Of a stretch of 32,978 bases of DNA, positions 4,616 through 28,363 are shown piece after piece. Made by a program: the position numbers and the translations under genes. The notes under the pieces were generated by a model. That model was not told the origin of the DNA. It saw only the letters and a program-made list of their open reading frames with translations, and did not search any database. Source of the stretch: Chloroflexota bacterium (GTDB lineage: Bacteria; Chloroflexota; Anaerolineae; J102); NCBI GenBank assembly GCA_024224665.1, contig JAAENG010000096.1:1-32978 (forward strand), written 5' to 3'. Position 1 is the stretch's first letter. Each line of letters starts with the position of its first letter.

Positions 4616-5752
4616 ATGCACACTGTTGCCGATCTCAATGAGCGAGATACCCGTTTTAAGCGGCTGCGTGCAGCCATGGCTGAGGCCGAATTAGATGCAT
4701 TGATTATCGCGGCCAAGGGACATTGGTGGAGTGGACGTGGCTACTTTCGCTATCTAACCGATTTCGGGCTATGGGCACATGATGGCTTGATCCTCTTTCC
4801 ACTGGAAGGGGAGCCGATGTTCACATTGTCCAGCGGCGCTCTGGCAAGTATGGTCGCTGATAGAGGTTGGATCAGTGATGCACGGGGGGATATTGACGTC
4901 TCTACAGAGATCGTCAAAGCGGTTAAAGAGAAGGGGTTGGATCGGAGCAAAATCGGTCTTGCCGGCCGTCATATGATCTTACCGGTTGGAGTCCATGAAA
5001 TCTTGATCGGCGGCCTGCCTGATGTTGATTTCGTTGATGCCGACATGCTCATGGATCGGACACGCGCCATCAAGAGTCCGCTAGAGATTCAGCAGCAACG
5101 CGAGCTCTGGGACGTAGCCAAGCAAGCTATGGAACGTTTCGTGGAGGTGCTCGAGCCAGGCAAGACTGACTACGAGCTTACCGCCGAACCACAGAAGCTG
5201 CTTATCGAGAACGGCTGCCGGGATGTCCTGCGCTTCTTGGGCGGCGTCCCCAGCGGCAAGGTCGTGAATTTGGAGGATATCGTCAGTTACCATCTGGAGA
5301 TTGAAGGCCCCAGCGGCCATTGGTGTGAGTTGACGGTCGCGCCCATGTTCCGGCCAATCACCGATTTGGAAGAGAAGCGTTGGGCTACGGAACTGCGGAT
5401 ATTCGATGAGATCTGCAAAATGGCGGTACCCGGAGTGACATTAAAAGAGATGGCCGACACGATGGAACGCGTCTATCTGGAAGATGGCTGGACCCTGAAA
5501 GATACACAGGCTCCCCACCACGATTTCCACGGCCAGGGCATCGACGTCATCGAGTGGCCCTGGTATGGCCCTCTTGATGATCGGCAAGGTGATGTGGTGC
5601 TACAAGCCGGCATGTGTTTCTCTTACCACCCGAGGCGGGATATCCTACCCGAAGTGCGCGGCACCGGCATCAATCAGAACATCGTGATTACAGAGGAGGG
5701 TGCCAAAGGCCTGGCTGAGCCATGGGATATGCGCTGGCGCGCCATGGTTTAG
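4616..5752 (+). CDS. M24-fold hydrolase A with altered metal ligands
   Basis: A 378-residue protein with the creatinase/prolidase N-terminal domain (about 1-155, with the conserved GHWW-GRGYFRYL-DF stretch at 35-50) and a pita-bread M24 domain (about 160-378, after RAIKSPLEIQQQR). The Asp-Asp-His-Glu-Glu metal set of M24 metallopeptidases is not there: by my alignment the five positions read H226, E238 (GPSGHWCEL), H305 (HHDFHGQG), H338 (FSYHPRR) and N353. Paralogues B and C, also 378 residues, keep nearly the same set. Creatinase is a known metal-free M24-fold enzyme and ectoine hydrolase shares the fold, so a C-N hydrolase other than a classic aminopeptidase is likely. GGAG at 4605 supports the ATG. 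Confidence 0.88.
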   Translation: MHTVADLNERDTRFKRLRAAMAEAELDALIIAAKGHWWSGRGYFRYLTDFGLWAHDGLILFPLEGEPMFTLSSGALASMVADRGWISDARGDIDVSTEIVKAVKEKGLDRSKIGLAGRHMILPVGVHEILIGGLPDVDFVDADMLMDRTRAIKSPLEIQQQRELWDVAKQAMERFVEVLEPGKTDYELTAEPQKLLIENGCRDVLRFLGGVPSGKVVNLEDIVSYHLEIEGPSGHWCELTVAPMFRPITDLEEKRWATELRIFDEICKMAVPGVTLKEMADTMERVYLEDGWTLKDTQAPHHDFHGQGIDVIEWPWYGPLDDRQGDVVLQAGMCFSYHPRRDILPEVRGTGINQNIVITEEGAKGLAEPWDMRWRAMV

Positions 5753-5889
5753 ACGCAACTGTCGATTCTTGGTCAAGCTTTAAGCAAGAGCAACATAAGG
5801 AGGTGATGCCCCACGAATGATCAAAGATGATGAGTCTCTTAGCTACAGATCGATTGATTCACCCATGTATTCCACGAGGAGATAACACC
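5753..5889 (+). promoter_or_regulatory. Leader of the first binding-protein gene with extended SD and possible 22-codon leader ORF
   Basis: AAGGAGGTGAT (5797-5807) is a full complement of the 16S rRNA 3' end but lies 82 bases before the lipoprotein ATG. Nine bases after it, ATG 5817 opens a 22-codon frame that stops at 5883-5885, four bases before the lipoprotein start at 5890. That could be a leader peptide coupled to the binding protein, or chance. A second AAGGAGGTGATG stands 214 bases before the other binding-protein gene, at 19086-19097, without an equivalent leader frame. Confidence 0.3.
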
Positions 5890-7536
5890 ATGAGAAAGTT
5901 GTTTATGTTGCTGGCAGGGTTGCTGGTCGTAAGTTTTGTACTCTCTGCCTGTGTAGCGCCGGCCGCACCAGCACCGGCAGCGCCGGCTGAGGCGCCTGCT
6001 GTTGAAGAGCCGGCAGAGGAAGATGCGGCTCCTGTAGAGGAAGCTGAAAAGAGGGTACTTATTGTAGCCCAGGGCGAGGGCGTCGAGTCTTGGGATCCGC
6101 CGGCAGGCTGGGACTCAGCCTCCGAGTGGATCGAGATGAACGTCTACGACTGTCTGGTCTACCCTGATCGCGATACCGGCGAAATGGTAGGTTGGTTGGC
6201 CGAATCCTGGGAGGCTCTGAGTGATACTCTGTGGCAGATAAACCTGCGAGAGGGCGTCAAATTCCACAATGGCGATGACTTTACAGCCGAAGACGCTAAA
6301 TACTCCATCGACCGCATCCTCAATGGCAGTAAGGAAGAATTCATCGTTTATGACCAATGGTCTTTCGTTAAGGAAGCACGGATTATCGATGACTATACCC
6401 TTGAAATAGAGACCACCAAACCTGATCCAGCCTTTCTTAGCGAGCTAAGTGGTACCGGTTGTGGCGTAGTGTCCAAGGATTATGTCGAAGAAGTCGGCAA
6501 CGATGGTCTGGCCAACTTCGGTATCGGCACCGGTCCCTTCAAGGTCGTGGACTACGACCGAGAATCCTTTGTCCGCCTGGCAGCGAACGAGGATTGGTGG
6601 GGTGGAAAGCCAGAAATAGACGAGCTGATTTTCCGAGTTATTCCAGAGCCCTCAACCCGCGTAGCTGAGCTGCTCTCCGGCGGTGTCAATTTGACCACCG
6701 GTGTTCTGCCCCAGGACTGGGAGCGCATTGAAGCGGACCCCAACCTGAAGGTCCAACAATTCCTGACCGACCGCGTCTATGGGCTCACTATTGCCCACGA
6801 ACCCCCTCCGGGTGTGGATGCCGTGGCAACCTCTAATCCTGATATTCGCGCTGCCATCGATTACGCCGTCGACCGCCAAGAACTAATCGACCTGGCTGGT
6901 GGCTTTGGTGTGCCGACACTGACCCGGCTCACCCCTCCCATCCCCTGTAACGATGCAGTCGATCCACCGCTCTACAACGTCAACCCCTATGATCCAGAGA
7001 AAGCCAAAGAATACTTGGAGAAGGCGGGTTATCCCGATGTGGAAGGCGGACCAGAGATCGTTCTTCACGGCACCTTCGGCCAGTATATTGCCCAGAAGGA
7101 AATTGCCGAGACCATCGCAGCGATGTTGGAAGAGGTCGGATTCGAAGTCAAACTGGACATCCGCGAGTTCTCGACCTTCCGTGAGACAGTCTACCAGGGT
7201 AATAATGAAGAGCTGATGTTGCAAAGCCTCGGCAACTTCACGACTGATCCCTGGCTGTACATCCTGAACTATGACTCGCGATTCGGCGAACGCATCCCCA
7301 CCCGTGGCCGCTTCTCCAACCCGGAGATCGATGAGCTGGCAGCCCAGGCTAACACGGCAATGGATCCCGACGAGCGCTGCAGCATCCTCAACGAATTTGC
7401 TCATACGGTCGCCGAGTTCCGGCCGACCATCGAGCTGTTCCAGATGTCTGATGCCCTTGGCATGAGCTCCAACATTGAGTGGATTCCACCGGCAGACGGC
7501 AATCTGATGATGGTCAACGTAGGCTACAACGACTAA
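5890..7536 (+). CDS. ABC transporter substrate-binding lipoprotein 1 (SBP_bac_5, dipeptide/oligopeptide type)
   Basis: A 548-residue extracytoplasmic binding protein of the DppA/OppA type. The start is set at the ATG at 5890 because GAGGAG (5876-5881) precedes it and the protein then begins with a lipoprotein signal: MRKLF, a hydrophobic core and lipobox LSAC with C21 as the lipidated residue. A low-complexity Ala/Pro/Glu linker (about 22-54) tethers the domain to the membrane. The mature part shows family landmarks LREGVKFHNGDDFTAEDAKY, a GTGPF turn and FRVIPEPSTRVAELL. It should capture a peptide-like or amino-acid-derived ligand for the permeases at 10250-12119. A perfect 32-base palindrome directly after the stop probably protects or terminates its transcript, giving excess binding protein over permease. 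Confidence 0.95.
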   Translation: MRKLFMLLAGLLVVSFVLSACVAPAAPAPAAPAEAPAVEEPAEEDAAPVEEAEKRVLIVAQGEGVESWDPPAGWDSASEWIEMNVYDCLVYPDRDTGEMVGWLAESWEALSDTLWQINLREGVKFHNGDDFTAEDAKYSIDRILNGSKEEFIVYDQWSFVKEARIIDDYTLEIETTKPDPAFLSELSGTGCGVVSKDYVEEVGNDGLANFGIGTGPFKVVDYDRESFVRLAANEDWWGGKPEIDELIFRVIPEPSTRVAELLSGGVNLTTGVLPQDWERIEADPNLKVQQFLTDRVYGLTIAHEPPPGVDAVATSNPDIRAAIDYAVDRQELIDLAGGFGVPTLTRLTPPIPCNDAVDPPLYNVNPYDPEKAKEYLEKAGYPDVEGGPEIVLHGTFGQYIAQKEIAETIAAMLEEVGFEVKLDIREFSTFRETVYQGNNEELMLQSLGNFTTDPWLYILNYDSRFGERIPTRGRFSNPEIDELAAQANTAMDPDERCSILNEFAHTVAEFRPTIELFQMSDALGMSSNIEWIPPADGNLMMVNVGYND

Positions 7537-7565: not shown

Positions 7566-7597
7566 ACGGGGCGGCCGATGGCCATCGGCCGCCCCGT
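7566..7597. terminator. 32-bp perfect palindrome after binding-protein gene 1
   Basis: ACGGGGCGGCCGATGG followed directly by its reverse complement gives a 16-bp GC-rich stem. It lies 29 bases after the lipoprotein stop and 28 bases before the M14 start. No T-run follows, so it is more likely a partial terminator or mRNA-stabilising hairpin than a full stop. Confidence 0.7.
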
Positions 7598-7625
7598 TCA
7601 CTATCATGTTCGGAGAAACATCGTA

Positions 7626-9341
7626 ATGACAGCCATCCCACCTGCTGACAACAACCAGTCTAGGGTCGAGATCGATTTCGGTAAATATCACACTTATGAA
7701 GAGATGAGCGATGGTATGCAACAATTGGCCGACGCTTATCCCGAATTAGCTCGCCTGCAATCCATCGGCCAGAGCCACGAAGGACGGGAAATGTGGTTGA
7801 TGGAGATCACCAACCTGGCTACTGGCCGCGCTGAAGACAAACCAGCACTCTATATTGATGGCAACTGCCACGGCGAAGAGATAATCACCTCTGAAGCCGC
7901 TTTTCATACGGTTTGGTACGCGCTCACCAAGTACGGTGACGATCCATTTGTCACAGCGCTTTTGGACACGCGTACGCTATACATCTTGCCGCGCCAGAAT
8001 CCAGATGGCGCCGAGTGGAGCCTGACCACACCTTATCACCATGTCGGTAACGGCCACTATCCCTTCTGGGAAGAACCGCTGACCGGACATCGGACCAAGG
8101 ACCTAAACGGCGACGGGCGCGCCACTGACATGCGGGTCATAGACCCATCTGGTGAATGGAAGATCTCCGAAAAAGATCCGAGACTGATGGTGATGCGGGA
8201 ACCAGGAGACATCGGCGGGGTCTATTACCGACTCTACCCGGAAGGTGAGATCATCGACCACGATGGTTTAGATGTCCGGGTCAGCAAGCCACGGCACGGT
8301 AACCTCAATCGCCAGTACCCGGCCAATTGGGGCCCGGAAGCCGTTGAGTATGGAGCCGGAGAAGTGCCTCTTAACGAGCCGGAAGGCAGGGCCATCGCCG
8401 AATTCATCCTAGCTCATCCTAACATCACCGGAGCCCAGGCTCACCATAGCCATGCAGGCGTCATTCTTAGCCAACTCAGTGCAATGCCAGGCCAGGCGAT
8501 GCCTGCCCGCGACATACGGCTGTTCGAATTCATTGGCGAGATGGGAACAAAAATAACCGGTTATCCACTACTGACAGCATCAGATCACTTCTCGCCGGCC
8601 GGCATCGACGATGTTCGTCATGGCGTGTTCACCACATGGCTCTACGGATTTCTAGGCCTCGTAACTTACACTATCGAGTTCTGGGATGTCGAGACAGAGG
8701 CCGGGATCGAGAAAACTGAGTTCTTCATGGAGCGCGGTCGGACCGATGAAGAGATGATCAAGCTGCTTACTTGGGCCGACGAAAATTGCGACGGACAAGG
8801 CTATTACGATTGGAAACCCTTCGATCATCCTCAATTGGGTCCTGTGGAGATCGGTGGTTGGAATCGAATGTTCGTCTTCCGCAACCCACCGGCCAAGTAC
8901 ATTGAGGGAATGGCAGAGAAAGGTACGCTGTTCGCACTGCGCCATGCCGCTTGCTCACCACTCATCCGCATCCAGGAAATCGAAACGAAACAAGTAGCCC
9001 CCGGCTTGATCAACATCACGGTCGTTATCGGCAACGAGGGTTGCCTCTCGACCAATTTAACCGAAAAGGCATTGCAACTGAAAAACATCGATGGCGTCAG
9101 CGCAACCCTGGAATTTAGCGATGATGTCGAATTGATCATGGGTTCAGTAAAACAAGATCTGGATCATCTCGCAGGCTATTGGGAGCGCCGCGATCCATGG
9201 AATGCCTGGGGCCCCCCTTGGAACGATACTCGGCGCAAAGCAGAATGGCAGGTACGAGTTCCTGTAGGGCAGCAGACCTCTCTACAGGTAATTGCCTCTG
9301 CGCCAAAAGGCGGAACCGTAAGACAGGAAGTAACTCTGTGA
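7626..9341 (+). CDS. M14-family zinc carboxypeptidase
   Basis: A 571-residue M14-type metallopeptidase. Zinc ligands and catalytic residues are in order: H82 and E85 in GNCHGEE, NPDG (125-128), NLNRQYP (N228, R229), H274 in AHHSHAG and the general base E351 in YTIEFWD. A DLNGDGRATD loop (159-168) resembles a calcium-binding segment and is found in some M14 branches. The last 170 residues look like a beta-rich accessory domain. No signal peptide is visible, so it may act on peptides after import. ATG 7626 is preferred over the in-frame ATG at 7578 because GGAGA (7612-7616) precedes it and 7578 lies inside the palindrome. It sits between the binding-protein gene and the permeases, an unusual place that ties it to the imported ligand. 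Confidence 0.92.
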   Translation: MTAIPPADNNQSRVEIDFGKYHTYEEMSDGMQQLADAYPELARLQSIGQSHEGREMWLMEITNLATGRAEDKPALYIDGNCHGEEIITSEAAFHTVWYALTKYGDDPFVTALLDTRTLYILPRQNPDGAEWSLTTPYHHVGNGHYPFWEEPLTGHRTKDLNGDGRATDMRVIDPSGEWKISEKDPRLMVMREPGDIGGVYYRLYPEGEIIDHDGLDVRVSKPRHGNLNRQYPANWGPEAVEYGAGEVPLNEPEGRAIAEFILAHPNITGAQAHHSHAGVILSQLSAMPGQAMPARDIRLFEFIGEMGTKITGYPLLTASDHFSPAGIDDVRHGVFTTWLYGFLGLVTYTIEFWDVETEAGIEKTEFFMERGRTDEEMIKLLTWADENCDGQGYYDWKPFDHPQLGPVEIGGWNRMFVFRNPPAKYIEGMAEKGTLFALRHAACSPLIRIQEIETKQVAPGLINITVVIGNEGCLSTNLTEKALQLKNIDGVSATLEFSDDVELIMGSVKQDLDHLAGYWERRDPWNAWGPPWNDTRRKAEWQVRVPVGQQTSLQVIASAPKGGTVRQEVTL

Positions 9342-10228
9342 AACCATCTGGACCGTTAGTTACTACGTTCTCCATTGTCGGCTTCGATCCTGCCAATGGC
9401 GATCTGGGTGTGGCCGTGGCGACCAAGTATATCGGCGTTGGTTCCAGCGTGCCGCACGCCAAACCCGAGTTAGGCGCTATTGCGGTTCAGGCCCATGCCA
9501 ATCCGAAGCTGGCTCCCCTGGGGCTGGCGCTGCTGGCTGAGGGCAAACAACCAGATAAAACCATCGATAGCCTGATGGCCGATGATGAGGGGCGGGATTA
9601 CCGACAGCTTGGTATCGTAGATGCGCAGGGACGGCCCGCTACCTACACCGGAACCCAATGCGAGGCGTGGGCTGGTGGCATGTTAGGCCTGTATTGTGCT
9701 GCGCAGGGTAACATGCTTCTTGGCGAAGAAACAGTCCAGGCCATGATAGACTGGTTCACCTCTCACGATGGCCCACTTGCTGATCGCCTTGTCGATGCAT
9801 TGCGAGCCGGTGAGCAGGCCGGCGGTGACAAGAGAGGACGGCAATCGAGCGCTTTACTTGTGGTGCGGCCAGGTGAAGGTTTCCGTGTTTACGATGATAA
9901 GCTGGTGGATCTCCGGGTAGATTCTGACCCCAAACCCTGTCTTCGCCTCCGTAAGTTACTCGACGAATACTATCAGGTGCAGGTGCGGACACCCGCCAAT
10001 GAGTACGTATCACTTACAAAGGAGATGGTAAGCGACATGCAACTGGCCCTTTACCGGCTCGGCCGATTTACAGGCGAGTTTCACGGCCAGTTCGATGAAA
10101 TGACTCGCAACGCGCTTTGGGGGTTCTGTGTAGCAGAGAACCAAAAGGAGCGCTGGAGCGACAACGACACCATCGATCCAAGACTATTCAGATTTCTGGT
10201 GGACTTCGCCGATCAGGCGCGCCAGTAA
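9338..10228 (+). CDS. DUF1028 protein with C-terminal peptidoglycan-binding-like domain
   Basis: A 296-residue protein. TTFSIVGFDPANGDLGVAVA (9-28) and GGDKRGRQSSALLV (162-175) are signatures of DUF1028, a family with an Ntn-hydrolase-like appearance and no settled function. From about residue 225 a short helical domain (MQLALYRLGRFTGEFHG) matches the putative peptidoglycan-binding domain often fused to DUF1028. The start is GTG at 9338, overlapping the M14 stop codon by four bases (GTGA), which implies translational coupling. Upstream in-frame codons lie inside the M14 gene. The location between binding protein and permeases suggests processing of an imported amide- or peptide-like compound. 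No signal peptide is seen, so binding of intact cell wall is unlikely. Confidence 0.9.
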   Translation: MKPSGPLVTTFSIVGFDPANGDLGVAVATKYIGVGSSVPHAKPELGAIAVQAHANPKLAPLGLALLAEGKQPDKTIDSLMADDEGRDYRQLGIVDAQGRPATYTGTQCEAWAGGMLGLYCAAQGNMLLGEETVQAMIDWFTSHDGPLADRLVDALRAGEQAGGDKRGRQSSALLVVRPGEGFRVYDDKLVDLRVDSDPKPCLRLRKLLDEYYQVQVRTPANEYVSLTKEMVSDMQLALYRLGRFTGEFHGQFDEMTRNALWGFCVAENQKERWSDNDTIDPRLFRFLVDFADQARQ

Positions 10229-10249: not shown

Positions 10250-11185
10250 ATGGGCAGATACATCATCCGACGTGCATTGCAGATGATTCCAGTCTTGTTT
10301 CTGGTTTCCTTGGTCGTGTTTTTCATCGTCCGCATCAAAGGGGATCCCGTGCTGATGCTGGTACCCGATTGGTACACAGAGGACCAAATTGCAGAGGTAC
10401 GGCAGGCGTATGGCTTTGATCAACCGATCTACATTCAGTATATCCAGTTCGCCAGCAAGGCACTGCAAGGAGACTTCGGCCGTTCCTTCCGAAACCGCCA
10501 ACCTGCCTGGGATATGGTCATGCATGCATTGCCACGTACCGCTCAGCTGGCTTTCGTGGCGCTGTTCTTCGGCTTAGTCATCTCGCTTCCCTTGGGTATC
10601 CTGTCGGCTATCAAGCGAAATTCACCCCTTGATCTGGTGGTAACATCGCTGTCTATTGGAGGACGTGCTCTGCCCAGCTTCTGGCTGGGCATTATGTTGA
10701 TTCTGCTCTTTTCAGTAACCTTGAAATGGCTCCCAGTGTCAGGTACGGGGGCTGTCAGGGGGGAGTCTGATCTCAAGTATATTATCTTGCCGGCTTTCGC
10801 ATTGTCGGCGGGACTGATCACGACAATGACGCGACTGATTCGATCATCGATGCTTGAGGTCATGCAGCAAGAGTATGTCACTACCGCGCGCGCCAAGGGC
10901 TTGCGGGAACGAACAGTCTTGATACGCCATGTCCTGCGCAATGCGCTCATTCCCGTTGTTACGGTCTTGGGTCTAAACATAGCTTGGCTTCTTGGCGGTG
11001 CAGTCATCATCGAACAGGTTTTTGCATGGCCAGGAATGGGTAGACTCATGATTCAGGCCATTTACGCTCGTGACAACTCTGTCGTTCAGGCCGGTCTTGT
11101 CGTTTCTGCTGTTATCATCATGATTGCAAACCTATCTGTAGATATTGTGTATTCGTACCTGGACCCGCGAATCAGATATTCGTAG
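10250..11185 (+). CDS. ABC transporter permease 1 (DppB/OppB type)
   Basis: A 311-residue inner-membrane permease with six predicted transmembrane helices; the first begins immediately (MGRYIIRRALQMIPVLFLVS). The cytoplasmic EAA loop that contacts the ATPase is intact: EYVTTARAKGL, then IRHVLRNALIPVVT (about 205-235). The C-terminal DPRIRYS ending is typical of the DppB/OppB family. A GAGGA sequence stands about ten bases before the ATG. It forms a heterodimeric channel with the next gene. No ATP-binding subunit (DppD/DppF) is encoded in the window, so the energising ATPase must come from elsewhere in the genome. Confidence 0.95.
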   Translation: MGRYIIRRALQMIPVLFLVSLVVFFIVRIKGDPVLMLVPDWYTEDQIAEVRQAYGFDQPIYIQYIQFASKALQGDFGRSFRNRQPAWDMVMHALPRTAQLAFVALFFGLVISLPLGILSAIKRNSPLDLVVTSLSIGGRALPSFWLGIMLILLFSVTLKWLPVSGTGAVRGESDLKYIILPAFALSAGLITTMTRLIRSSMLEVMQQEYVTTARAKGLRERTVLIRHVLRNALIPVVTVLGLNIAWLLGGAVIIEQVFAWPGMGRLMIQAIYARDNSVVQAGLVVSAVIIMIANLSVDIVYSYLDPRIRYS

Positions 11186-11192
11186 ACAACAC

Positions 11193-12119
11193 ATGAGTGA
11201 TTCGAAAGATAACAATTTGCAGGCAGAATCTGAAAACCGCTTCGGTTTCAAGAGGCGCTCATCGCCGAGAGCGATTCTCTTCAGACGGTGGCGGCGCAGT
11301 CCTGTAGGCATTGTTGGTACATTCATGGTACTGACTGTAATAATCATGGCATTGGCCGCGCCACTAATCGCACCTCACGACCCGACCCAGCACCATCGCG
11401 ACCAGCGGTTTACACCCCCAGTCTGGATGGCTGAGGGCAATCCCGAGTACGTCTTGGGTTCCGACCAGCTGGGACGAGATGTATGGAGTCGCATCCTCTA
11501 CGGAAGCAGAATCTCGGTGGTTGTCGGTGTGGCAGCGGTGGTAATCGGGGGAACTGTGGGCACAATCATGGGCTTGACTGCCGGCTTTCGGGGTGGACGA
11601 ACCGACGCCATCATCAGTCGTTTTCTGGACGCGTTTCTTTCTATTCCCTTCATCATCTTGGTACTGGCATTGGTAGGTGTCTTGGGTCCCAGCCTGGGTA
11701 CTATCATCCTGGTTCTTGGCGTCACGGGATGGGCGAGCTACGCGCGCGTGGTCCGGGGTGAGTCGCTGTCTGTTAAAGAGCGAGAGTTCGTTTTAGCGGC
11801 CGAGGTAGTTGGCGTAAAATCCACACGCACGGCGTTCAAACATGTATTGCCAAATGTCTTCGCTTCGATTATCGTCCTGGCAACTCTGGATGTAGCGGCG
11901 ACTATTTTGGCGGAATCCAGCCTGAGTTATTTGGGCTTAGGGGTTCAGCCTCCCACCGTCACATGGGGCACCATGATTGCTGATGGCCGTGAGTACCTTT
12001 CCTCGGCCTGGTGGTTGGCAGTTTTCCCGGGACTCGCCATCATGTTCACAGTATTGGGCGTGATTTTCTTAGGAGACTGGCTGCGTGACGTTCTCGACCC
12101 TAAACTGAAAGAAGATTGA
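11193..12119 (+). CDS. ABC transporter permease 2 (DppC/OppC type)
   Basis: A 308-residue partner permease. A soluble N-terminal stretch (about 1-40) precedes the first membrane helix, the DppC/OppC layout, followed by LGSDQLGRDVWSRILYGSRI (about 92-111), a strong OppC signature. The EAA loop REFVLAAEVVGV...HVLPNVFASIIV is present and the C-terminus ends GDWLRDVLDPKL. ATG 11193 lies seven bases after the stop of permease 1; a longer frame from 11145 would overlap that gene and adds a non-conserved tail. Confidence 0.95.
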   Translation: MSDSKDNNLQAESENRFGFKRRSSPRAILFRRWRRSPVGIVGTFMVLTVIIMALAAPLIAPHDPTQHHRDQRFTPPVWMAEGNPEYVLGSDQLGRDVWSRILYGSRISVVVGVAAVVIGGTVGTIMGLTAGFRGGRTDAIISRFLDAFLSIPFIILVLALVGVLGPSLGTIILVLGVTGWASYARVVRGESLSVKEREFVLAAEVVGVKSTRTAFKHVLPNVFASIIVLATLDVAATILAESSLSYLGLGVQPPTVTWGTMIADGREYLSSAWWLAVFPGLAIMFTVLGVIFLGDWLRDVLDPKLKED

Positions 12120-12139: not shown

Positions 12140-12976
12140 ATGAAAGTTTATATTACCAGCGATATGGAAGGAATCTGCGGTGTTGTCCATCCCGAGCATA
12201 CGGGCGTGGACGGCAGGCGGCACTATGAAGCGCGAAAGTGGATGACGGAACATATTAATGCGGCAGTTGAGGGAGCCTTCGAGGCCGGAGCTTCAGAAGT
12301 GTGGGTGTGCGATGGTCACAGCAATGGCCGCAATGTCATTTTGGATCTGTTCCATCCAGGTGCCAGGCTACTATGGGGGCGTCAAAACCGGCGCTCGGGT
12401 CAGGTAGAAGGTATCGACGAGAGCTTTGATGCCCTGGCTATGGTAGGTTTCCATGCCCGTGCGGGCACCCTGGGCGTGCTCAACCACACGACCAATAGTG
12501 GCGTCGTACACGAGATGAAGGTTAACGGTATGGCGGTGGGCGAGATTGACATCAACGCAGCCACTGCAGGTGAATTTGGTGTACCGGTGGTCATGGTGTC
12601 TGGCGGAGCCACGGCCACTGCTCAGGCCAAAGAAAATATGCCATGGCTTGAAACCGCAACGGTCATGGATCCAGTCGGCACTTATTCGGCCAATTTGTTA
12701 CCTCTGGGAACGGTCCACAACCTGGTACGGGAGGCGATCAAGCAGGGCCTGGCCCAGCGCAAGGACATGCCGCTTTTCCGCTTCGAGGGACCTATCCGCT
12801 TGGAGATGACATTCCACGATACGGCAATGGCCGATGCGGCAGCAATGGTGCCCGGTAGCGAACGTCTGGCACCGCGCACTTGTCTGTACACGGCGGCTGA
12901 TTTTTTGGAGGCCTTCCGAGTCCACTGGGTCATGATTGTCCTGGCCACCTCAGAACGATGGGTACAGACAGCATAA
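12140..12976 (+). CDS. M55 D-aminopeptidase, DppA-like
   Basis: A 278-residue cytoplasmic zinc aminopeptidase. Active-site residues fall almost exactly at the positions of Bacillus subtilis DppA: D8 and E10 in ITSDMEGI, H60 in VCDGHSNG, H105 in VGFHARAG, H116 in LNHTTNSG and E135 in VGEID. The family forms ring-shaped oligomers and releases N-terminal D-amino acids. GAGGTG at 12129-12134 selects ATG 12140 over an upstream in-frame ATG at 12116. It follows the two permeases closely, as in B. subtilis where dppA is part of the dipeptide-permease operon. This suggests that ligands of importer 1 contain D-residues or similar unusual peptide bonds (inference). Confidence 0.93.
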   Translation: MKVYITSDMEGICGVVHPEHTGVDGRRHYEARKWMTEHINAAVEGAFEAGASEVWVCDGHSNGRNVILDLFHPGARLLWGRQNRRSGQVEGIDESFDALAMVGFHARAGTLGVLNHTTNSGVVHEMKVNGMAVGEIDINAATAGEFGVPVVMVSGGATATAQAKENMPWLETATVMDPVGTYSANLLPLGTVHNLVREAIKQGLAQRKDMPLFRFEGPIRLEMTFHDTAMADAAAMVPGSERLAPRTCLYTAADFLEAFRVHWVMIVLATSERWVQTA

Positions 12977-21003: not shown

Positions 21004-21921
21004 GTGCAACGATATCTGATACGCCGTGTGTTGGAGATTATCCCGACGATCTTCATCCTCACACTGATCGTCTTCTTCGTCATCCGTTTGAAGGGTGATC
21101 CGATAGCTCAATTGGCGCCCTTCGATCTGAACCAAGAGGAGATCGAGATGCTGCGTAGCGCCTATGGGCTCGACCAGCCGTTGCATATCCAGTATTGGAA
21201 ATTCCTCTCCAAGCTGGTGGTGGGCGATTTCGGCAGATCTATGCGCTATCATGCCCCTGCCATGCCGATCGTGCTCGAACGCATCCCCGCCACCCTAGAG
21301 CTTGCCTTTGCTGCCCTGATATTTTCGCTTGTCATATCCTTACCCCTTGGGATAACTTCGGCCCTAAAACCCAACTCTCTCCTGGATCTGGTCGCCACGA
21401 CCTTCTCGGCCATTGGCCGCGCCATGCCGTCGTATTGGCTTGGAATCATGTTAATCTTATTTCTGGCAGTGGCCTATCCCATTTTCCCGGTTTCTGGTCG
21501 AGACAAGCCAGGCAGCATCATTCTGCCCATGGTCACTCTGGGCCTGGGACTGGCGACAACCTTGACCCGCATTATCCGCTCCAGCATGCTCGAGGTTGTT
21601 CGCCAGGATTACATCACCACGGCCAGGTCAAAGGGATTACATGACCGCGTCATCCTCATCAAGCATGCGCTTCGAAACGCCTTGATTCCAGTGATCACTG
21701 TCTTCGCTTTGCAGATGGCGTGGCTTTTCAGTGGTGTGGTAATCGTGGAAACGGTCTTTGCCTGGCCCGGCATGGGGCGCCTGTTGGTCAAGGCAGTTCA
21801 GACCCGAGATATGGCCGTAGTGCAGGCCGGTATATTCATTGCCGCCATGGCAGTTTTGATCATCAACCTACTCACAGATGTTATCTATACAGTCGTCGAT
21901 CCCAGGATCAGTTATGACTGA
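21004..21921 (+). CDS. ABC transporter permease 3 (DppB/OppB type)
   Basis: A 305-residue inner-membrane permease of the second importer. The frame opens with GTG at 21004 after AGGAAAG (20990-20996). MQRYLIRRVLEIIPTIFILT is the usual first helix of the family, the EAA loop is DYITTARSKGL followed by IKHALRNALIPVIT, and the C-terminus ends DPRISYD. It pairs with the gene at 21993. It is similar in sequence to permease 1, implying that the whole importer was duplicated. Confidence 0.95.
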   Translation: MQRYLIRRVLEIIPTIFILTLIVFFVIRLKGDPIAQLAPFDLNQEEIEMLRSAYGLDQPLHIQYWKFLSKLVVGDFGRSMRYHAPAMPIVLERIPATLELAFAALIFSLVISLPLGITSALKPNSLLDLVATTFSAIGRAMPSYWLGIMLILFLAVAYPIFPVSGRDKPGSIILPMVTLGLGLATTLTRIIRSSMLEVVRQDYITTARSKGLHDRVILIKHALRNALIPVITVFALQMAWLFSGVVIVETVFAWPGMGRLLVKAVQTRDMAVVQAGIFIAAMAVLIINLLTDVIYTVVDPRISYD

Positions 21922-21992: not shown

Positions 21993-22904
21993 ATGACTGA
22001 AACATCGCCATCAATGCCCCAATTGAAGCCGGCAAGAACACGACGGAACTATATGTTGAGCCGTCTGCGCAAGAGCCCGGTCGGGATCATCGGCGTGATT
22101 ATCGTCGGACTCGTATTCTTCATGGCCATTTTTGCACCCCTGATCATGCCGCACGATCCCACGGAATTCGATTTCAAGCAAAGGCTGGTTCCCCCCGTCT
22201 GGCAGGAAGGAGGATCCTGGGATTACATTCTCGGTTCGGATCAAATGGGCAGGGACCTGCTCAGCCGTCTCATTATCGGATCACGTATCTCCGTTCTCGT
22301 CGGCATAAGCGCCGTATTAATTGCTGGCTCTCTCGGAATCTCAGTGGGTCTTCTGGCAGGCTTTCGCGGCGGCTGGATCGACTCCGTATCCATGCGCGTT
22401 GTAGATGCCTTTTTCGCCGTCCCCTTCATCCTGATGGCGATGACCATCGTGGGAATGCTCGGCCCCAGCGTCCTGACTGTGGTAGTAACCCTGGGATTGG
22501 TGCAATGGCAGAGCTACGCTCGCGTGGTGCGAGCCGAGGTGTTGACCTTGCGGGAGCGCGAGTACGTGACCGCAGCTCACGTGATTGGCCAGTCCCATTT
22601 CAAGATCGCCTCTCGTCACATCCTGCCCAATGCCATGGCCTCGGTGATCGTACTGGCAACATTGCAGGTAGCGGCCACCATCATCGCCGAATCAGCGTTG
22701 AGCTTCCTGGGCGTGGGCGTGCAGCCCCCTACAGTAACTTGGGGTTTGATGCTGGCCGATGGTCGAAACTATTTGGCCGGCGCCTGGTGGCTGGCCACAT
22801 TCCCGGGAGTGGCGATCACAATTACAGTCCTCGGCATCATTTTCCTGGGGGATTGGCTGCGCGATGTCCTCGATCCCAGGCTGCGAGGAACAGGAGAAGC
22901 CTAG
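21993..22904 (+). CDS. ABC transporter permease 4 (DppC/OppC type)
   Basis: A 303-residue permease with a short cytoplasmic N-terminus, LGSDQMGRDLLSRLIIGSRI, the EAA loop REYVTAAHVIGQ...HILPNAMASVIV and a GDWLRDVLDPRL ending. A 71-base gap separates it from permease 3. The ATG at 21993 has only a weak purine-rich stretch upstream. As for importer 1, no ATPase gene follows; the next gene is an AspA/AstE-type deacylase. Confidence 0.94.
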   Translation: MTETSPSMPQLKPARTRRNYMLSRLRKSPVGIIGVIIVGLVFFMAIFAPLIMPHDPTEFDFKQRLVPPVWQEGGSWDYILGSDQMGRDLLSRLIIGSRISVLVGISAVLIAGSLGISVGLLAGFRGGWIDSVSMRVVDAFFAVPFILMAMTIVGMLGPSVLTVVVTLGLVQWQSYARVVRAEVLTLREREYVTAAHVIGQSHFKIASRHILPNAMASVIVLATLQVAATIIAESALSFLGVGVQPPTVTWGLMLADGRNYLAGAWWLATFPGVAITITVLGIIFLGDWLRDVLDPRLRGTGEA

Positions 22905-22976: not shown

Positions 22977-23993
22977 ATGAAAGTTGGAGATATCGTTGGA
23001 CAGTCCGGTCAAAAGGTCAGAGGTCGGCTACTTGTCACCTATACGACGGCGCAGATCCCCGTCGAACTGCCCGTCACGATTGTCATGGGCGCAAAGCCGG
23101 GCAGAACGCTGGTGGTGACTGCAGCCCTGCACGGACGCGAGGCTATCGGCCCTCTTGGCCTAGGTAAAGTGCTACGAGAGATCGATCCTAGTCAAATGAG
23201 TGGCAACCTGATCGCCGTGCCCTGTGTGAACATGAGTGGTCGCGAGTTCGACCAGCGCCATGTCCTTTGGGACGATAAGGACCCGAACCGCCAGAAATCG
23301 GGCAAAAAGGATGGCACGGTCACCGAGCGACTTGTTTATCACCTGTTCCATGAAGTGATCCTGAAAGGTGACGCGCACGTCGATATCCATTCCAGCAGCT
23401 CGGTTGGGCTTGTCTGGTATACACTCTATCATGAGACCAAGGACACTTCTCCTGAGACGCTACGTAAAACGAAAGAAATGTCGATGGCGTTCGGTCTCGA
23501 ACAAGTAATGGGCAAGACACCCTGGCACGGTACCATTCTGGAGGAAAGCATGAACGCGGGCATCCCCGCCATTACGCCCGAGGTCGGGGGCGGTGGGGAT
23601 TTCTATCAGAACGGACGCAAGCAGATCGATTGGTGCGCTCGTGGCATTGTCAACGTGATGAAGTTGATGGGCATCTTGCCAGGTGAGATCGAGACTGAGT
23701 CGAACAAAGCGATCATCTGGGATGGTCATACCGAGATTTTGAATGACGGCAGAGGAGCGCTGATGCTTGTGGAAGCCAAGCGCGGACAGATGCTCAAAAA
23801 GGGCGACCTCTTCGCCATCAAATACGACCCGACAACGGGTGATGAGCTGGCCAGGTATTATGCGCCGGCCGACGGCACGGTTCTCAACACCGGCCTGGTC
23901 TGGCCCCACTGCCCACCGAATCAGTTCCTGGGTGTGTTGGGCGATAAAATGGACGAAGTCGATCTAACAACTCACCAGTGGACGTGGGAGTAA
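22977..23993 (+). CDS. AspA/AstE-family deacylase 3 (divergent)
   Basis: A 338-residue paralogue with the zinc ligands at the same positions as the others: H52 and E55 (LHGRE) and H138 (VDIHSS), with E202 in ITPEVGGGG as general base. The Asn/Arg motif reads KDPNRQ (101-106), with Pro replacing the Leu of NLNR, and the residues after H138 are SSSS instead of SGT/SGG. Those two changes sit beside the substrate carboxylate pocket. AGGAG at 22961-22965 precedes the ATG. The gene follows the second permease pair directly, so its substrate is likely the ligand of importer 2 or a product made from it. Confidence 0.88.
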   Translation: MKVGDIVGQSGQKVRGRLLVTYTTAQIPVELPVTIVMGAKPGRTLVVTAALHGREAIGPLGLGKVLREIDPSQMSGNLIAVPCVNMSGREFDQRHVLWDDKDPNRQKSGKKDGTVTERLVYHLFHEVILKGDAHVDIHSSSSVGLVWYTLYHETKDTSPETLRKTKEMSMAFGLEQVMGKTPWHGTILEESMNAGIPAITPEVGGGGDFYQNGRKQIDWCARGIVNVMKLMGILPGEIETESNKAIIWDGHTEILNDGRGALMLVEAKRGQMLKKGDLFAIKYDPTTGDELARYYAPADGTVLNTGLVWPHCPPNQFLGVLGDKMDEVDLTTHQWTWE

Positions 23994-23999: not shown

Positions 24000-24977
24000 A
24001 TGAAAACCCTGGTGACCGGCGCCATCGGCTTCGTTGGGATCAACGTTGTTCGGCTGCTGGCCGAGCAGGACAATCAGGTGGTGGCACTGTACCGCACCCC
24101 GCCCGATCAAGACGCACTTGACTTTCTAGAGCCGGTTCGTGATCGTATAGATCTGTTGCCGGGAGATGTTGAGGATCAAGAGCAGCTGTCGGCCATTGTG
24201 CAGGAGCACAGACCCGAGGGCATCATCCACGGCGCTGCTATGACGCCAAGGCCCGAGACCGAGCGTGCGATGCCGGCGCGTATCATGAACATCAATTTCA
24301 TGGGCACGATAAAGGCCCTTGACGCAGCCAGAGAAAATGGCGTTCGCTCGTTCGTCTATGTCAGTTCCAACGGCCTCTACGGCGGCATAGAGGACCCCAC
24401 CAAACCGGTGACAGAAGATACGCCGGCTCGTGGCGATAATCTCTATGCCATCGCAAAAGTCGCCAGTGAGGCGGTCTGCAACCGCTATAAGAACATGTAC
24501 GGGATAAACACCGTTTCGGGTCGCGTCTGCGCAACGTATGGTCCCATGGAAAGGCCGACTCGGTCTCGAACCGGAATGTCGGCGATCTGTGAAATGGCCA
24601 GAGCGCTGCTTGAGGGGCAGGTTCTGCGAGTTCGGGGTGTAGAAGTTGCCCGGAGCTGGACCCACGTTGCCGACATCGCAGGCGAGTTGATTGCGCTCCT
24701 GGAGGCTCCCAAACACAGCTACGATGCCTACAATGTCTCCTACGGAGTCGCCTACACTTTGCAGCAGGTGCTGGACGACTTCACAACGGTGGAGCCCAAG
24801 TTCCGTTACGAGATCGTCGGTCCAAATGACGAGGCAGATGTGGCTTATGGGCCTGATGCGCAGCGGGGTCCCCTGGATATCACCCGAATGCGAGAGGATA
24901 TCGGTTTCCAACCCAAGTTCGACCTGGCAACAGGCATAGCAGACTACATGACCTGGTTACACTCAACGACTGTATAG
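24000..24977 (+). CDS. NAD(P)-dependent epimerase/dehydratase (extended SDR)
   Basis: A 325-residue Rossmann-fold enzyme. The nucleotide-binding motif is GAIGFVG (7-13), an acidic GDVEDQ (55-60) follows, and the active site has VSSNGLYG (121-128) with Y149 and K153 in YAIAK. The C-terminal domain has a WTHVADIAG segment typical of nucleotide-sugar or hydroxyacid SDRs. It starts six bases after the stop of deacylase 3, so the two are cotranscribed. Placed between deacylases, it more likely works on a hydroxy- or keto-acid product than on sugar nucleotides, but that is inference. Confidence 0.92.
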   Translation: MKTLVTGAIGFVGINVVRLLAEQDNQVVALYRTPPDQDALDFLEPVRDRIDLLPGDVEDQEQLSAIVQEHRPEGIIHGAAMTPRPETERAMPARIMNINFMGTIKALDAARENGVRSFVYVSSNGLYGGIEDPTKPVTEDTPARGDNLYAIAKVASEAVCNRYKNMYGINTVSGRVCATYGPMERPTRSRTGMSAICEMARALLEGQVLRVRGVEVARSWTHVADIAGELIALLEAPKHSYDAYNVSYGVAYTLQQVLDDFTTVEPKFRYEIVGPNDEADVAYGPDAQRGPLDITRMREDIGFQPKFDLATGIADYMTWLHSTTV

Positions 24978-25004: not shown

Positions 25005-26024
25005 ATGAAAATCAGCAACATCGAATGTGGGCGTGGCGAACGCGCTTTTGGTTACATGCAGGTGGATGAGACCCGCGGTCGTATTCCGGTCAGCATCCCT
25101 ATCAATATCGTCCGTGGAATAGAAGATGGACCGACCTTACTGGTGGACGCAGCGCTCCACGGTGAGGAGAACATTGGCACGGTAGCCATTGGGCAACTGC
25201 TACGCACACTGGAACCCAAGGATATCAAGGGAACCCTGATCGCTGTGCCGGTCGTCAACACAGCCGGATTCGAGTTTCAGCAACGAGAGGTGACTTGGGA
25301 CGGCAAGGACTTGAATCGTCAGGGAGAAGGCGACCCCGATGGCACCGAGGCGCAGCGTCTAGCCCACGCCTACCTTAATGAGGTTGTGTATAAAGCAGAC
25401 TACTACATCGACATCCATTCCGGAGGACCCGATGCATTCGTGTGGTACACAATCTACGAGGATTCACCAGACTTGGCCCCCAAAGTGGTGACTGATAGCA
25501 AGCAAATGGCCCTGGCGTATGGTTTGATAGATGTGTTCTGCCGCACGCCCTGGCACGGCACGCTACATGAGGTCACTGTGCGCAGAGGAATTCCCACTAT
25601 CAGTCCCGAGATGGGAGGTGGTGCAGACTTTATGTGGAACGGCCAGGAGATGGTGGACATCGGTATGCAAGGAATCGTCAACGTAATGATCATGCTGGGC
25701 ATGTTGGATGGCACGATGGTACTCCAAGGGCCAAAAACCAAAATCTGGGATGCCAAGCATGAGATCACTAGCGGTCCCCACCATGGCATCTTTATGCGCA
25801 AGCGCCAATGGGGTGAGAGAATGAAAAAGGGCGAGGTCTACGGTACCATGTACCACCCCTACACCGGAGAGAGTCTGGCCGACATCCTCGCGCCCGAGGA
25901 CGGCACGATTCTTAACAGCGGCCGAGTATGGCCGGTAGTGGTGCGCAACCGCTTCGCCACTATCCTGGGAGATATGGTGGAGGAGATAACGCTGAGCGAG
26001 TCGGAGTTGGCGCAATTCATGTAG
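25005..26024 (+). CDS. AspA/AstE-family deacylase 4
   Basis: A 339-residue paralogue with H52, E55 (LHGEE), KDLNRQ (101-106), H138 (IDIHSG) and E202 (SPEMGGGAD). It is closest to deacylase 5 (shared KISNIEC/KIGNIEC start and FQQR-V-WDGKDLNRQG). An AAAAAGGAT stretch precedes the ATG. It lies after the SDR gene with a 27-base gap, in the same operon. The C-terminal beta domain is shorter than in deacylase 5. Confidence 0.9.
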   Translation: MKISNIECGRGERAFGYMQVDETRGRIPVSIPINIVRGIEDGPTLLVDAALHGEENIGTVAIGQLLRTLEPKDIKGTLIAVPVVNTAGFEFQQREVTWDGKDLNRQGEGDPDGTEAQRLAHAYLNEVVYKADYYIDIHSGGPDAFVWYTIYEDSPDLAPKVVTDSKQMALAYGLIDVFCRTPWHGTLHEVTVRRGIPTISPEMGGGADFMWNGQEMVDIGMQGIVNVMIMLGMLDGTMVLQGPKTKIWDAKHEITSGPHHGIFMRKRQWGERMKKGEVYGTMYHPYTGESLADILAPEDGTILNSGRVWPVVVRNRFATILGDMVEEITLSESELAQFM

Positions 26025-26070
26025 TGTCGAGCGCTCGTATACTCTGCGAGTGGTGTATCAATAAACCTGT

Positions 26071-26121: not shown

Positions 26122-26153
26122 CTTAGCTTTTTCAGAACAATAAGGATGGAAAT

Positions 26154-27206
26154 ATGAAGATCGGGAATATCGAATGCAAGCCCGGGGAGCGCACATTTGG
26201 CTATCTGGAAGTGGATCGCACCGTCTCGGAGTTGCCCATCAGCATACCTCTGACAATCCTGTGCGGACCTAAAGAGGGCCCGACGCTGGTCGTCGATGCC
26301 GCACTCCATGGCGATGAGAACGTGGGCAGTGTAGCTATCGGCCAGTTCCTACGCAATATCGATGTAAGCGAAATCAAGGGAACGGTGATAGCGATTCCAG
26401 TGGTCAATACATCCGGATATGAGTTCCAGCAGCGCGCAGTGATGTGGGATGGCAAGGACCTCAACCGCCAAGGCGGCGGAGACCCCAACGGTACGGCTGC
26501 ACAGCGCCTGGCCTACACCTATTTCCAGGAGGTGGTTGCCAAAGCAGATGCATTCATCGACATCCACTCAGGCACGCCCGATGGCCTCGTTTACTATACC
26601 TTTTACGAGGCACATCTGGAGGGCACGAAACCGGAAGTTATCGCGCGCAGTAGAGAGATGGGGCTTGCCTTCGGCCTGGCAGACGTATTCTCTGAGACCC
26701 CATGGCCCGGTACGTTCGAGGAGGTGGCCCTCAAGCATGATGTCCCATCCATCTCGGTCGAGATCGGCGGCGGTTCTGACTGGCGTTATCGCGGGCAGTC
26801 GTTCATCAATGAATGCGAGCGGGGCATCCGCAATGTGATGATTATGTTCGGGATGTTGGATGGCAAGATCGTGACCAATGAGCCACAGGCTAAAATTTGG
26901 CGTATCACCCATGAAGTATTCAGCGGTTCCTATCAGGGTTACTTCTTGCGCAACCCTGAATTGGGTCCTGATTTTGGGATGGCGGTACAGAAGGGAGATG
27001 TGTACGGCTCCATGTATCATCCCTTTACCGGCGCCAAGTTGGGCGATATCCTGATACCCGACGACGGCTATTTGCTGCAAAGTGCTCGCCTCTGGCCGGT
27101 CATCCCGCGCAATCGTTTCCTGACCATTATCGGCGACCTGGCGGAGGAAGTAGCGTTGGAGACAACTTCGTTTGCCCACTTACTGGCGTCGAGTGCCGCA
27201 CCTTAG
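26154..27206 (+). CDS. AspA/AstE-family deacylase 5
   Basis: A 350-residue paralogue with H52, E55 (LHGDE), KDLNRQ (101-106), H138 (IDIHSG) and E203 (SVEIGGGSD). It differs from deacylase 4 by an insertion near 265-275 (RNPELGPDFGM) in the C-terminal beta domain. AAGGATGG precedes the ATG. Deacylases 4 and 5 form a second adjacent pair but are clearly older duplicates than 1 and 2. Confidence 0.9.
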   Translation: MKIGNIECKPGERTFGYLEVDRTVSELPISIPLTILCGPKEGPTLVVDAALHGDENVGSVAIGQFLRNIDVSEIKGTVIAIPVVNTSGYEFQQRAVMWDGKDLNRQGGGDPNGTAAQRLAYTYFQEVVAKADAFIDIHSGTPDGLVYYTFYEAHLEGTKPEVIARSREMGLAFGLADVFSETPWPGTFEEVALKHDVPSISVEIGGGSDWRYRGQSFINECERGIRNVMIMFGMLDGKIVTNEPQAKIWRITHEVFSGSYQGYFLRNPELGPDFGMAVQKGDVYGSMYHPFTGAKLGDILIPDDGYLLQSARLWPVIPRNRFLTIIGDLAEEVALETTSFAHLLASSAAP

Positions 27207-27259
27207 ATCTCGCCAGTATCAAACTCATATAGACTGAACGAACCTGGGCTACCTCAAAC

Positions 27260-28363
27260 ATGAATATTACAAACGATAGACTTCGAGTAGGAGTTGTAGG
27301 CGCCGATATCCACAAGCGAGGATTCGGTGCGCGGGCACATTTGCCGGCTGTCTTGGCATCGCCGGCGGTACAGCTAGACGCGATCTGCACTGCACACCCA
27401 GAGACTGCCAAAGAGTCGGCGGCTATATGGGGGGCACCCAAATACTACAGCGACCATCGCGATTTGGTTGGTGATCCCGACATTGATCTGATAACCATTG
27501 CCGTCACCGTGGAAGCGCACTATCCTATCGCAAAGGCTGCAATGGAGGCAGGCAAGACAGTTTACTGCGAATGGCCGTTGGCTTCTAACCTAGATGAGGC
27601 GCGCGATCTGGCGGATCTAGCCCATGCTCAGGGTGCTGTCGCCATGGTGGGCATGCAGGGACGATTCTCACCGGGTGTGCAATACCTTAAGGAACTATTG
27701 GATGACGGATTAGTCGGCCGCCCCCTCTTTTTCCACCTCACTCACTTTCTACCCCGCTTCCCTGTCCGTTCCGATCATTGGTGGTCAGCCACCAAAGAGG
27801 CAGGAAGCGGCGCGCTCAACATTGCGTTGGCCCATGCTACCGAGCCGACTCAATTTCTATTGGGTCAAATTGCGGCAGTATGCGGCATGGCTGGCACACT
27901 ATTACCAGGTGATTACTTTAGCGATACCGGAGAACCGTTCGACTGGACTGCCGAAGACACCGTAGCTGTGATGGCACGCACGGAGGAGGGGGTGCAGGGC
28001 GTGATCCACGTTAGCAATATTGGAACGCAGCGATCGGGCTTCCGCTTGCAGATCTTTGGAGATCAAGGGCAGGTTTTGATCCAGGCTCCCCGCTATGTTT
28101 CTTACACACCTACCCGTCTTTTCAAGGCCGTTCGGGGGGAAGCTGAACTGTTAGAGATCCCGGTTCCGGCCCATTTCTACCACGTCCCTGAACTGAGTGA
28201 AAATGAGACGGGCTATAATATTGCAGAAGCGTTGGTAACGCTGGCAAGTGCCCACCGCAGCCAGACAAGCGTCCGCCCTGATTTGTCCGATGGCTACCAC
28301 ATGCATCTTTTGGTGGATGCTATTCGCCGTTCGGTTGACCAAGGTGCTTGGGTTGATGTTTAA
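27260..28363 (+). CDS. Gfo/Idh/MocA-family oxidoreductase
   Basis: A 367-residue NAD(P)-dependent oxidoreductase with an N-terminal Rossmann domain (LRVGVVGADI, 8-17) and a C-terminal alpha/beta domain (from about 125). The usual EKP motif reads EWP here (CEWPLASN, 103-110), so the Lys that helps catalysis in most members is a Trp, as in Gal80-like relatives. A SGALNIALAHATEP segment replaces the common GG-H-D region. It may be a dehydrogenase with altered chemistry or a sensor-like protein. No good ribosome binding site precedes ATG 27260. It is the last plus-strand gene before the bidirectional hairpin at 28379-28422. Confidence 0.9.
   Translation: MNITNDRLRVGVVGADIHKRGFGARAHLPAVLASPAVQLDAICTAHPETAKESAAIWGAPKYYSDHRDLVGDPDIDLITIAVTVEAHYPIAKAAMEAGKTVYCEWPLASNLDEARDLADLAHAQGAVAMVGMQGRFSPGVQYLKELLDDGLVGRPLFFHLTHFLPRFPVRSDHWWSATKEAGSGALNIALAHATEPTQFLLGQIAAVCGMAGTLLPGDYFSDTGEPFDWTAEDTVAVMARTEEGVQGVIHVSNIGTQRSGFRLQIFGDQGQVLIQAPRYVSYTPTRLFKAVRGEAELLEIPVPAHFYHVPELSENETGYNIAEALVTLASAHRSQTSVRPDLSDGYHMHLLVDAIRRSVDQGAWVDV

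Follow-up and report, generated by a model that had tools for sequence, protein, structure and literature searches.

The 32,978-nucleotide contig JAAENG010000096.1 of a Chloroflexota bacterium (Anaerolineae; GCA_024224665.1), referred to here in its whole length as the window, carries four M24-fold proteins and five AspA/AstE-type zinc deacylases amid importer, peptidase, oxidoreductase and aminotransferase genes. We lean, by a modest degree, towards the view that the window makes up the greater part of an inducible catabolic regulon in two loci, controlled by a GntR protein and directed at cyclised or N-acylated derivatives of amino acids or peptides. The hydrolases and deacylases of this regulon would act like the ectoine pair DoeA/EutD and DoeB/EutE without being members of it. 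The source assembly is a draft of 5.77 Mb in 628 contigs (91.7% complete, 6.4% contamination). Domain families of the window proteins were assigned by Pfam scans, and curated cut-offs were taken from NCBIfam/TIGRFAM models.

M24-fold hydrolases and deacylases of separate lineages

A first-pass annotation of the sequence had placed four M24-fold proteins, five AspA/AstE deacylases, two importers, M14, M55, DUF1028 and several oxidoreductases in one stretch. Pfam confirmed all of these families in the window, the oxidoreductases being an aldo/keto reductase, an SDR and a GFO/IDH protein, together with the GGT-like and aminotransferase families. Because four of the 11 M24 matches and five of the six AstE/AspA matches of the genome sit within about 24 kb of 5.77 Mb, this clustering is not due to chance.

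Three of the M24-fold proteins (M24a, M24b and M24c) are local duplicates of 378 residues, 57-67% identical, which form a clade of their own, and the fourth (M24d, 399 residues) represents a different lineage that groups with an M24 protein from contig C350 of the same assembly. Membership of the M24/creatinase superfamily, with its pita-bread fold, is evident from PF00557 and PF01321. The AlphaFold model of M24b (pLDDT 88) fits the structures of DoeA, prolidase and creatinase about equally (TM 0.7-0.8), with an E-value of 3e-19 for the match to creatinase 1chm, and the nearest solved sequences to the group are prolidase and DoeA.

The comparison with the ectoine enzymes made by the first-pass annotation holds insofar as DoeA/EutD and DoeB/EutE are the nearest characterised relatives, but the M24 proteins are not DoeA-type enzymes. 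With the two ectoine hydrolase models (TIGR02993, NF038259), M24b scored 49.7 and 61.3 bits against cut-offs of 613 and 575, and M24d scored 75 and 94. In the tree, the 378-residue group (itself a 100/100 clade) and its sister lineage were separated from DoeA with support of 100/99 to 100/100, and a grouping with DoeA alone was rejected (p-AU 2e-5); the group may be the sister of the wider DoeA-like clade. The active site is altered as well. The D,D,H,E,E metal ligands of canonical M24 metallopeptidases (prolidase, aminopeptidase P) are replaced by H,E,H,H,N/D in M24a-c and by S,E,H,E,S in M24d, which speaks against simple metallopeptidases. DoeA itself keeps an upstream His, shared with YpdF, and has E,P,Y,M,T in place of the former metal ligands; M24a-c lack that His and do not show this pattern. 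The sister lineage reads E,E,H,H,S at the five positions, and E239, H306 and H338 are invariant over the 16 sequences aligned. Across the genome, the canonical set is absent from all five regulon M24 proteins and complete in four of the six others aligned.

The 378-residue group is rare: two strict peptide patterns, applied to one genome per species in about 85,000 species, recovered at least 10 loci, a count that is a lower bound. Within the class Anaerolineae it is present in 7 of 298 genomes, and a phylum-wide search for further members returned distant extras only. The M24d homologue in genome G135 (L021, 17847-19068) is split over two overlapping frames, through a frameshift or a sequencing error. 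Another amplified M24 cluster, nearer to DoeA, occurs on the rhizobial plasmids L032 and L066, with two or three M24 genes, an ATP-binding cassette importer, an M20 aminoacylase, an amidohydrolase and, in L032, DUF2817.

The five deacylases belong to the AspA/AstE superfamily (PF24827, 68-76 bits against a cut-off of 25), and all of them keep the zinc ligands H52, E55 and H138 (HxxE...H) and the catalytic E205. Their nearest solved relative is DoeB/EutE (6twl, E 9e-25), but Ast1 and Ast4 reach only 112.7 and 92.5 bits against the 402.7-bit cut-off of the DoeB/EutE model (TIGR02994), and all five fall inside a separate 21-member clade with support of 98/98. In the sister clusters of family f19, Trueperaceae and Armatimonadota, the active deacylase is accompanied by a zinc-less copy, in which one ligand His is Ser, the other is Arg in nearly all cases, and the catalytic Glu is His, Trp, Phe or Tyr; Chloroflexota, Deinococcota and Armatimonadota all show this pairing. 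A Clostridia metagenome-assembled genome of 1.9 Mb (G661; L050-L056, L010) has about nine copies of the deacylase clade at scattered positions, of which only some adjoin the M24 gene.

The ectoine eut/doe clusters resemble the window in that they combine importer and aminotransferase genes with adjacent genes for an M24-fold hydrolase and a zinc deacylase of AspA/AstE type, and DoeA and DoeB are among the nearest solved structures and NCBIfam models. Ordinary use of ectoine or hydroxyectoine with amplified DoeA and DoeB is nevertheless very improbable. Scores far below both cut-offs, separate clades for both enzymes and the altered active site bear out the earlier suggestion that this is not simply the ectoine pathway. 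The window also differs in its Opp/Dpp-type importers without ATPases, its GntR/FCD-type operator, its amplified copies and its hydantoinase-like gene, and it has no ectoine importer, EutB or EnuR. Ectoine users, with DoeA, DoeB, a 2,4-diaminobutyrate (DABA) aminotransferase, a semialdehyde dehydrogenase and the EnuR regulator, have been reported only in Proteobacteria (PMC5924519).

A common palindrome and a second locus

The perfect 17-bp palindrome CTGTCAACNGTTGACAG occurs three times in the whole assembly, and its reversed control does not occur at all. Two copies lie in the window (operators 1 and 2, Table 1), where 0.04 would be expected even allowing three mismatches, and both are embedded in a common 80-bp stretch of similar sequence. 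The third is found on C350 (20924-20940), in front of a GntR/FCD regulator gene (20133-20837, minus strand). Past this copy, in the divergent direction, C350 ends within sequence reading NDKFVGIQISPISFIDEG, identical to the start of the orphan gene o1 of the window, so that a second o1-like copy begins there. As expected of a GntR/FCD regulon, the palindrome is thus common to starts of transcription units and to a regulator gene, an arrangement suggesting that the regulator binds it.

Since the palindrome is shared by both ends of the window and by the regulator gene on C350, the regulon also includes o1, o2 and the second locus. The genes from 2145 to 28363 are all on the plus strand with mostly short gaps, and the GGT-AT1-AT2 operon on the minus strand converges on them, with a strong hairpin between. 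The unit starts upstream of 4616 and extends beyond 4616-28363 to o1, the hydantoinase-like o2, the AT2-AT1-GGT operon and the second locus. With its boundary drawn at these two positions, the first-pass annotation had left out the hydantoinase-like gene and the orphan gene, and also the second locus, where the likely regulator is encoded; its assignment of the aminotransferases and the GGT-like gene to the same regulon is supported by the palindrome.

On C350 the operon encodes a 2-hydroxyacid dehydrogenase, two DUF4438 proteins, an SDR, AT2-like and AT1-like proteins, an AspA protein and an M20 protein, followed farther along by Ldh_2, a solute-binding protein (SBP), permeases, M14, M24 and M20. 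The two DUF4438 proteins, a domain of unassigned function, stand in tandem (L061, 17297-19094) after the regulator and the dehydrogenase. The GntR protein beside HyuB-HyuB-M24 in G256 (L023) shares 60% identity with the C350 regulator, and the GntR protein that accompanies HyuB-HyuB-o2-M24-o1 in Trueperaceae (L006) shares 46%; the other FCD regulators compared, all from the same genome as C350, share at most 28%. A loose form of the operator, TGTCRACNNTYGACA, with up to one mismatch, gave 12 hits in 23 stretches of relatives versus 0.7 in simulated sequence. These sites include the GntR promoters of L097 and L098 and the divergent HyuA/HyuB, AT1/HyuB, SBP/SBP and HyuA/MR_MLE intergenic regions of L021, L022 and L024.

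The hydantoinase-like gene and the orphan gene

L- and D-hydantoinases are the nearest relatives of the o2 protein, L-hydantoinase 1gkr giving the best match to a solved structure (E 2e-76), and the motifs HFH, K, H, H, D show that the hydantoinase-type metal site of o2 is intact. The protein belongs to the superfamily and stays below the cut-offs for single activities (318 against 358 bits for allantoinase, 315 against 393 for dihydropyrimidinase). Seven of seven genomes have their first- or second-ranked o2 homologue on the same contig as the M24 gene, no more than about 25 kb away. The o1 protein has no Pfam match, and its predicted model (pLDDT 45) is unusable. It is 77% identical to its homologue in Trueperaceae (L006) and 83% identical to that in G256, both near hydantoinase and M24 genes. 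Between Chloroflexota and Deinococcota loci, o1 is far better conserved than the genes around it, an observation suggestive of recent transfer or of strong constraint.

These neighbours raise the alternative that the genes serve degradation of hydantoins, N-carbamoyl or cyclic ureido/imide amino acids, where o2 would open the ring, the M24 proteins would split the ureido or amide bond, and deacylases and peptidases would be accessory, lineage-added functions. As in creatinase and hydantoin degradation, an M24 (creatinase) fold stands beside cyclic amidohydrolases, the likeness to creatinase being a match of fold (1chm). In the deacylase-less M24 branch, no conserved neighbour stands closer to the 378-residue proteins than o2, with the orders HyuB-o2-M24 in Caldilineaceae and HyuB-HyuB-o2-M24-o1 in Trueperaceae. 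HyuA and HyuB (N-methylhydantoinase/oxoprolinase) of hydantoin degradation are found in such related loci but are absent from the window. We regard this alternative as rather unlikely, given that the M24 clade of Clostridia, f19 and Armatimonadota comes with deacylases, with no o2 seen in the stretches read, and that the catalytic His common to YpdF and DoeA is missing.

Co-occurrence of the two families in other genomes

Among the 298 Anaerolineae genomes, the M24 clade occurs in 15 and the deacylase clade in nine at E ≤ 1e-50 and in six at E ≤ 1e-75. Every one of the six genomes with strong deacylase homologues has an M24 gene of the clade about 5 kb or less from the deacylase gene (Fisher p 5e-9, with no correction for kinship, five of the six genomes being of one family). 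The families thus do not occur mostly apart where the deacylases are concerned: a deacylase strongly predicts an M24 gene, and the reverse prediction is partial. The partnership is also found in Trueperaceae (L059), Armatimonadota (L057, L058, L106, L107) and Clostridia (L010, L052). Hence, of the hydrolase-deacylase pairs proposed earlier, the association stands, as the families travel together across four phyla; one-to-one pairing does not fit the gene counts or the branch distribution, with a deacylase-less branch beside hydantoinase-type genes. In G135 and G256 both the deacylase and the hydantoinase contexts are present on one contig, but the deacylases are of another clade.

The f19 cluster reads GntR-AT2-AT1-HacidDH-SDR-Ldh_2-AspA-S9-active Ast-inactive Ast-OCD-M24-PrpD-SBP-permB-permC-DegT (HacidDH, 2-hydroxyacid dehydrogenase), which comes close to combining the gene sets of the window and of C350, and close versions of it are found in Trueperaceae and Armatimonadota. 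Like the eut clusters with their eutC, the f19 relatives carry a gene of the OCD/mu-crystallin family, to which we take EutC to belong.

Importers, peptidases and aminotransferases

Opp/Dpp-type importer genes are present twice, each set consisting of an SBP of family 5 followed, at some point downstream, by a permease pair (permeases B and C). The two importers of the first-pass annotation are accordingly found as SBP and permease sets, not as complete importers. Since the window encodes no Opp/Dpp ATPase and nine other contigs together have 18 matches to oligo_HPY, the C-terminal domain of such ATPases, the simplest reading is that the importers use shared ATPases encoded elsewhere.

Could the cluster be a general peptide-scavenging island, with Opp/Dpp importers, the peptidases M14, M55, M24, DUF1028 and GGT, and AspA/AstE-like proteins acting as carboxypeptidases or in a deformylase-like way on ordinary peptides? 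SBP family 5, M14, M55, S9 and M20 do accompany it in most relatives. In Bacillus subtilis dpp-type operons, too, M55 adjoins SBP family 5 and a permease pair; the window differs from these in lacking ATPases and in its far larger enzyme set. On a plasmid of Cytobacillus oceanisediminis (L029, NZ_CP062791.1, 169-187 kb), five AspA/AstE-type genes are interspersed among those of two Opp importers, and M20 is present; unlike the window, the plasmid cluster has ATPases and no M24, and its deacylases are mostly of a separate clade. However, canonical metallopeptidase ligands are lost in all regulon M24 proteins, and hydantoinase-type genes (o2, HyuA, HyuB), OCD and dehydrogenases, which peptides do not call for, recur, several of them under the same operator type. 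We consider peptide scavenging somewhat unlikely.

The aminotransferases noted in the first pass are of two kinds: AT1 retains the lysine that binds pyridoxal phosphate (PLP), and AT2 lacks it. The lysine is absent from AT2 and its homologues in all four loci aligned, each adjoined by a normal AT1. Serine palmitoyltransferase has a lysine-less subunit, and by analogy our guess is that AT2 may be a non-catalytic partner of AT1.

Table 1. Features of the window and, in the last two lines, paralogues in other loci (ORF, open reading frame; SBP, solute-binding protein)
Feature	Position	Strand	Evidence or remark
o1, orphan 474-residue protein, divergent from o2 across operator 1	124..1548	-	no Pfam match
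Operator 1, perfect palindrome CTGTCAACAGTTGACAG between o1 and o2	1612..1628	.	3 genome copies
o2, cyclic amidohydrolase, hydantoinase/dihydropyrimidinase-like	2145..3527	+	Amidohydro_1
Weaker operator-like site before o3-M24a	3602..3616	.	1 mismatch to loose consensus
o3, aldo/keto reductase	3666..4604	+	PF00248 E 8e-78
M24a, M24-fold hydrolase, non-canonical active site	4616..5752	+	PF00557; H227, E229, E239, H306, H338 (M24b numbering)
SBP1, lipoprotein SBP family 5	5890..7536 (ORF from 5827)	+	PF00496 E 5e-79; lipobox LSAC
M14 zinc carboxypeptidase	7578..9341	+	PF00246; HGEE, H and E motifs
DUF1028 protein with C-terminal PG_binding_2	9338..10228 (ORF from 9179)	+	PF06267 E 3e-69, PF08823; likely GTG start overlapping M14 stop
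permB1, Opp/Dpp-type permease B	10250..11185	+	PF00528, PF19300
permC1, Opp/Dpp-type permease C	11193..12119 (ORF from 11145)	+	PF00528, PF12911
M55 D-aminopeptidase	12140..12976 (ORF from 12116)	+	PF04951 E 1e-86
Ast1, AspA/AstE-type zinc deacylase	13048..14115	+	PF24827; zinc ligands
Ast2, deacylase, 83% identical to Ast1	14145..15212 (ORF from 14112)	+	Pfam, alignment, zinc ligands
M24b, 378-residue M24-fold hydrolase	15239..16375	+	Pfam, tree; predicted model pLDDT 88, top fold match EutD/DoeA 6twk
M24c, duplicate of M24b (67%)	16483..17619	+	Pfam, alignment, tree
M24d, other M24 lineage, first Asp ligand lost	17807..19006	+	Pfam, tree, alignment; pairs with C350 M24
SBP2, second lipoprotein SBP	19311..20912 (ORF from 19248)	+	PF00496 E 2e-84; lipobox VTGC
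permB2, permease B	21004..21921	+	Pfam
permC2, permease C	21993..22904	+	Pfam
Ast3, deacylase	22977..23993	+	Pfam, zinc ligands
NAD-dependent epimerase/dehydratase-type SDR	24000..24977	+	PF01370 E 5e-42; homologue in L021
Ast4, deacylase	25005..26024	+	Pfam, zinc ligands
Ast5, deacylase, sister of Ast4	26154..27206	+	Pfam, zinc ligands
GFO/IDH/MocA oxidoreductase	27260..28363	+	PF01408
Terminator-like hairpin, 19-bp stem, between two convergent units	28379..28422	-	sequence
GGT-like Ntn hydrolase	28440..30104	-	PF01019 E 1e-63; below TIGR00066 cut-off
AT1, class I/II aminotransferase with PLP lysine	30109..31302	-	PF00155 E 1e-63; SKAYAMTG motif
AT2, aminotransferase-fold protein without PLP lysine	31326..32429	-	PF00155 E 3e-14; lysine absent in 4/4 aligned homologues
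Operator 2, perfect palindrome CTGTCAACTGTTGACAG upstream of AT2-AT1-GGT	32604..32620	.	3 genome copies
Zinc-less AspA/AstE paralogues	L059 10956-11942; L058 8067-9035; L097 10659-11654; L099 3577-4587; L100 8286-9578 and 10397-11551		
Lysine-less AT2 homologues	L059 4414-5538; L097 1262-2350; L061 15095-15991		

Proposed pathway and its significance

In the regulon that we favour, the GntR/FCD regulator of C350 would bind the palindrome before its own gene, between o1 and o2 and before AT2-AT1-GGT, and would release these operators once an imported compound is present. SBP1 and SBP2 with their permease pairs, borrowing ATPases from elsewhere, would bring in small peptide-like compounds. M14, M55, DUF1028 and GGT would then cut away peptide or gamma-glutamyl portions, cyclic or substituted amide C-N bonds would be hydrolysed by o2 and the M24-fold proteins, and the five zinc deacylases would strip N-acyl groups. 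Finally AT1, perhaps with the lysine-less AT2, and the dehydrogenases would pass the freed amino acid to central metabolism. By analogy, the M24-deacylase relay may follow the same two-step chemistry as DoeA and DoeB in the ectoine pathway, in a different enzyme lineage and presumably on other substrates.

Several points weigh against this proposal. Its substrates and chemistry are deduced from enzyme classes, and the several kinds of true peptidase in the cluster would fit a plain use of peptides just as well. In Caldilineaceae, G256 (the 378-residue copy) and Trueperaceae L006, M24 proteins have no such deacylase nearby and HyuB and o2 instead; because one M24 branch has this arrangement, the two steps are not obligatorily coupled. 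Only about five independent lineages show the co-occurrence. In the relatives, the looser form of the palindrome was found but never the perfect one. Finally, C350 could in principle be a contaminant, as the assembly is a draft with 6.4% contamination, though C350 and the window have the palindrome and an o1-like gene in common.

There is a fair chance that the M24 clade, with its His/Glu-Glu-His-His pocket, is a distinct enzyme class. More tentatively, and with less than even confidence, we suggest that this new class of hydrolase, the matched deacylase clade and the GntR operator constitute an undescribed catabolic system, which may have been passed on by transfer between members of Chloroflexota, Deinococcota, Armatimonadota and Clostridia. 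It would serve the use of a class of amino-acid derivatives, cyclic or N-acylated, that is common in dissolved organic nitrogen and so far unrecognised. No earlier description of the cluster was found in the literature searched, in which subscription journals were mostly missing.

The system offers small testable units, with one regulator, one 17-bp operator and sets of M24 and deacylase genes, and two side puzzles, the lysine-less aminotransferase partners and the zinc-less deacylase partners that are kept beside active ones. If our reading is correct, the partnership of an M24-fold hydrolase and an AspA-type deacylase known from ectoine use would exist in a second enzyme lineage, and a recurrent, regulated nutrient pathway would be added to phyla whose organic-nitrogen diet is poorly known.

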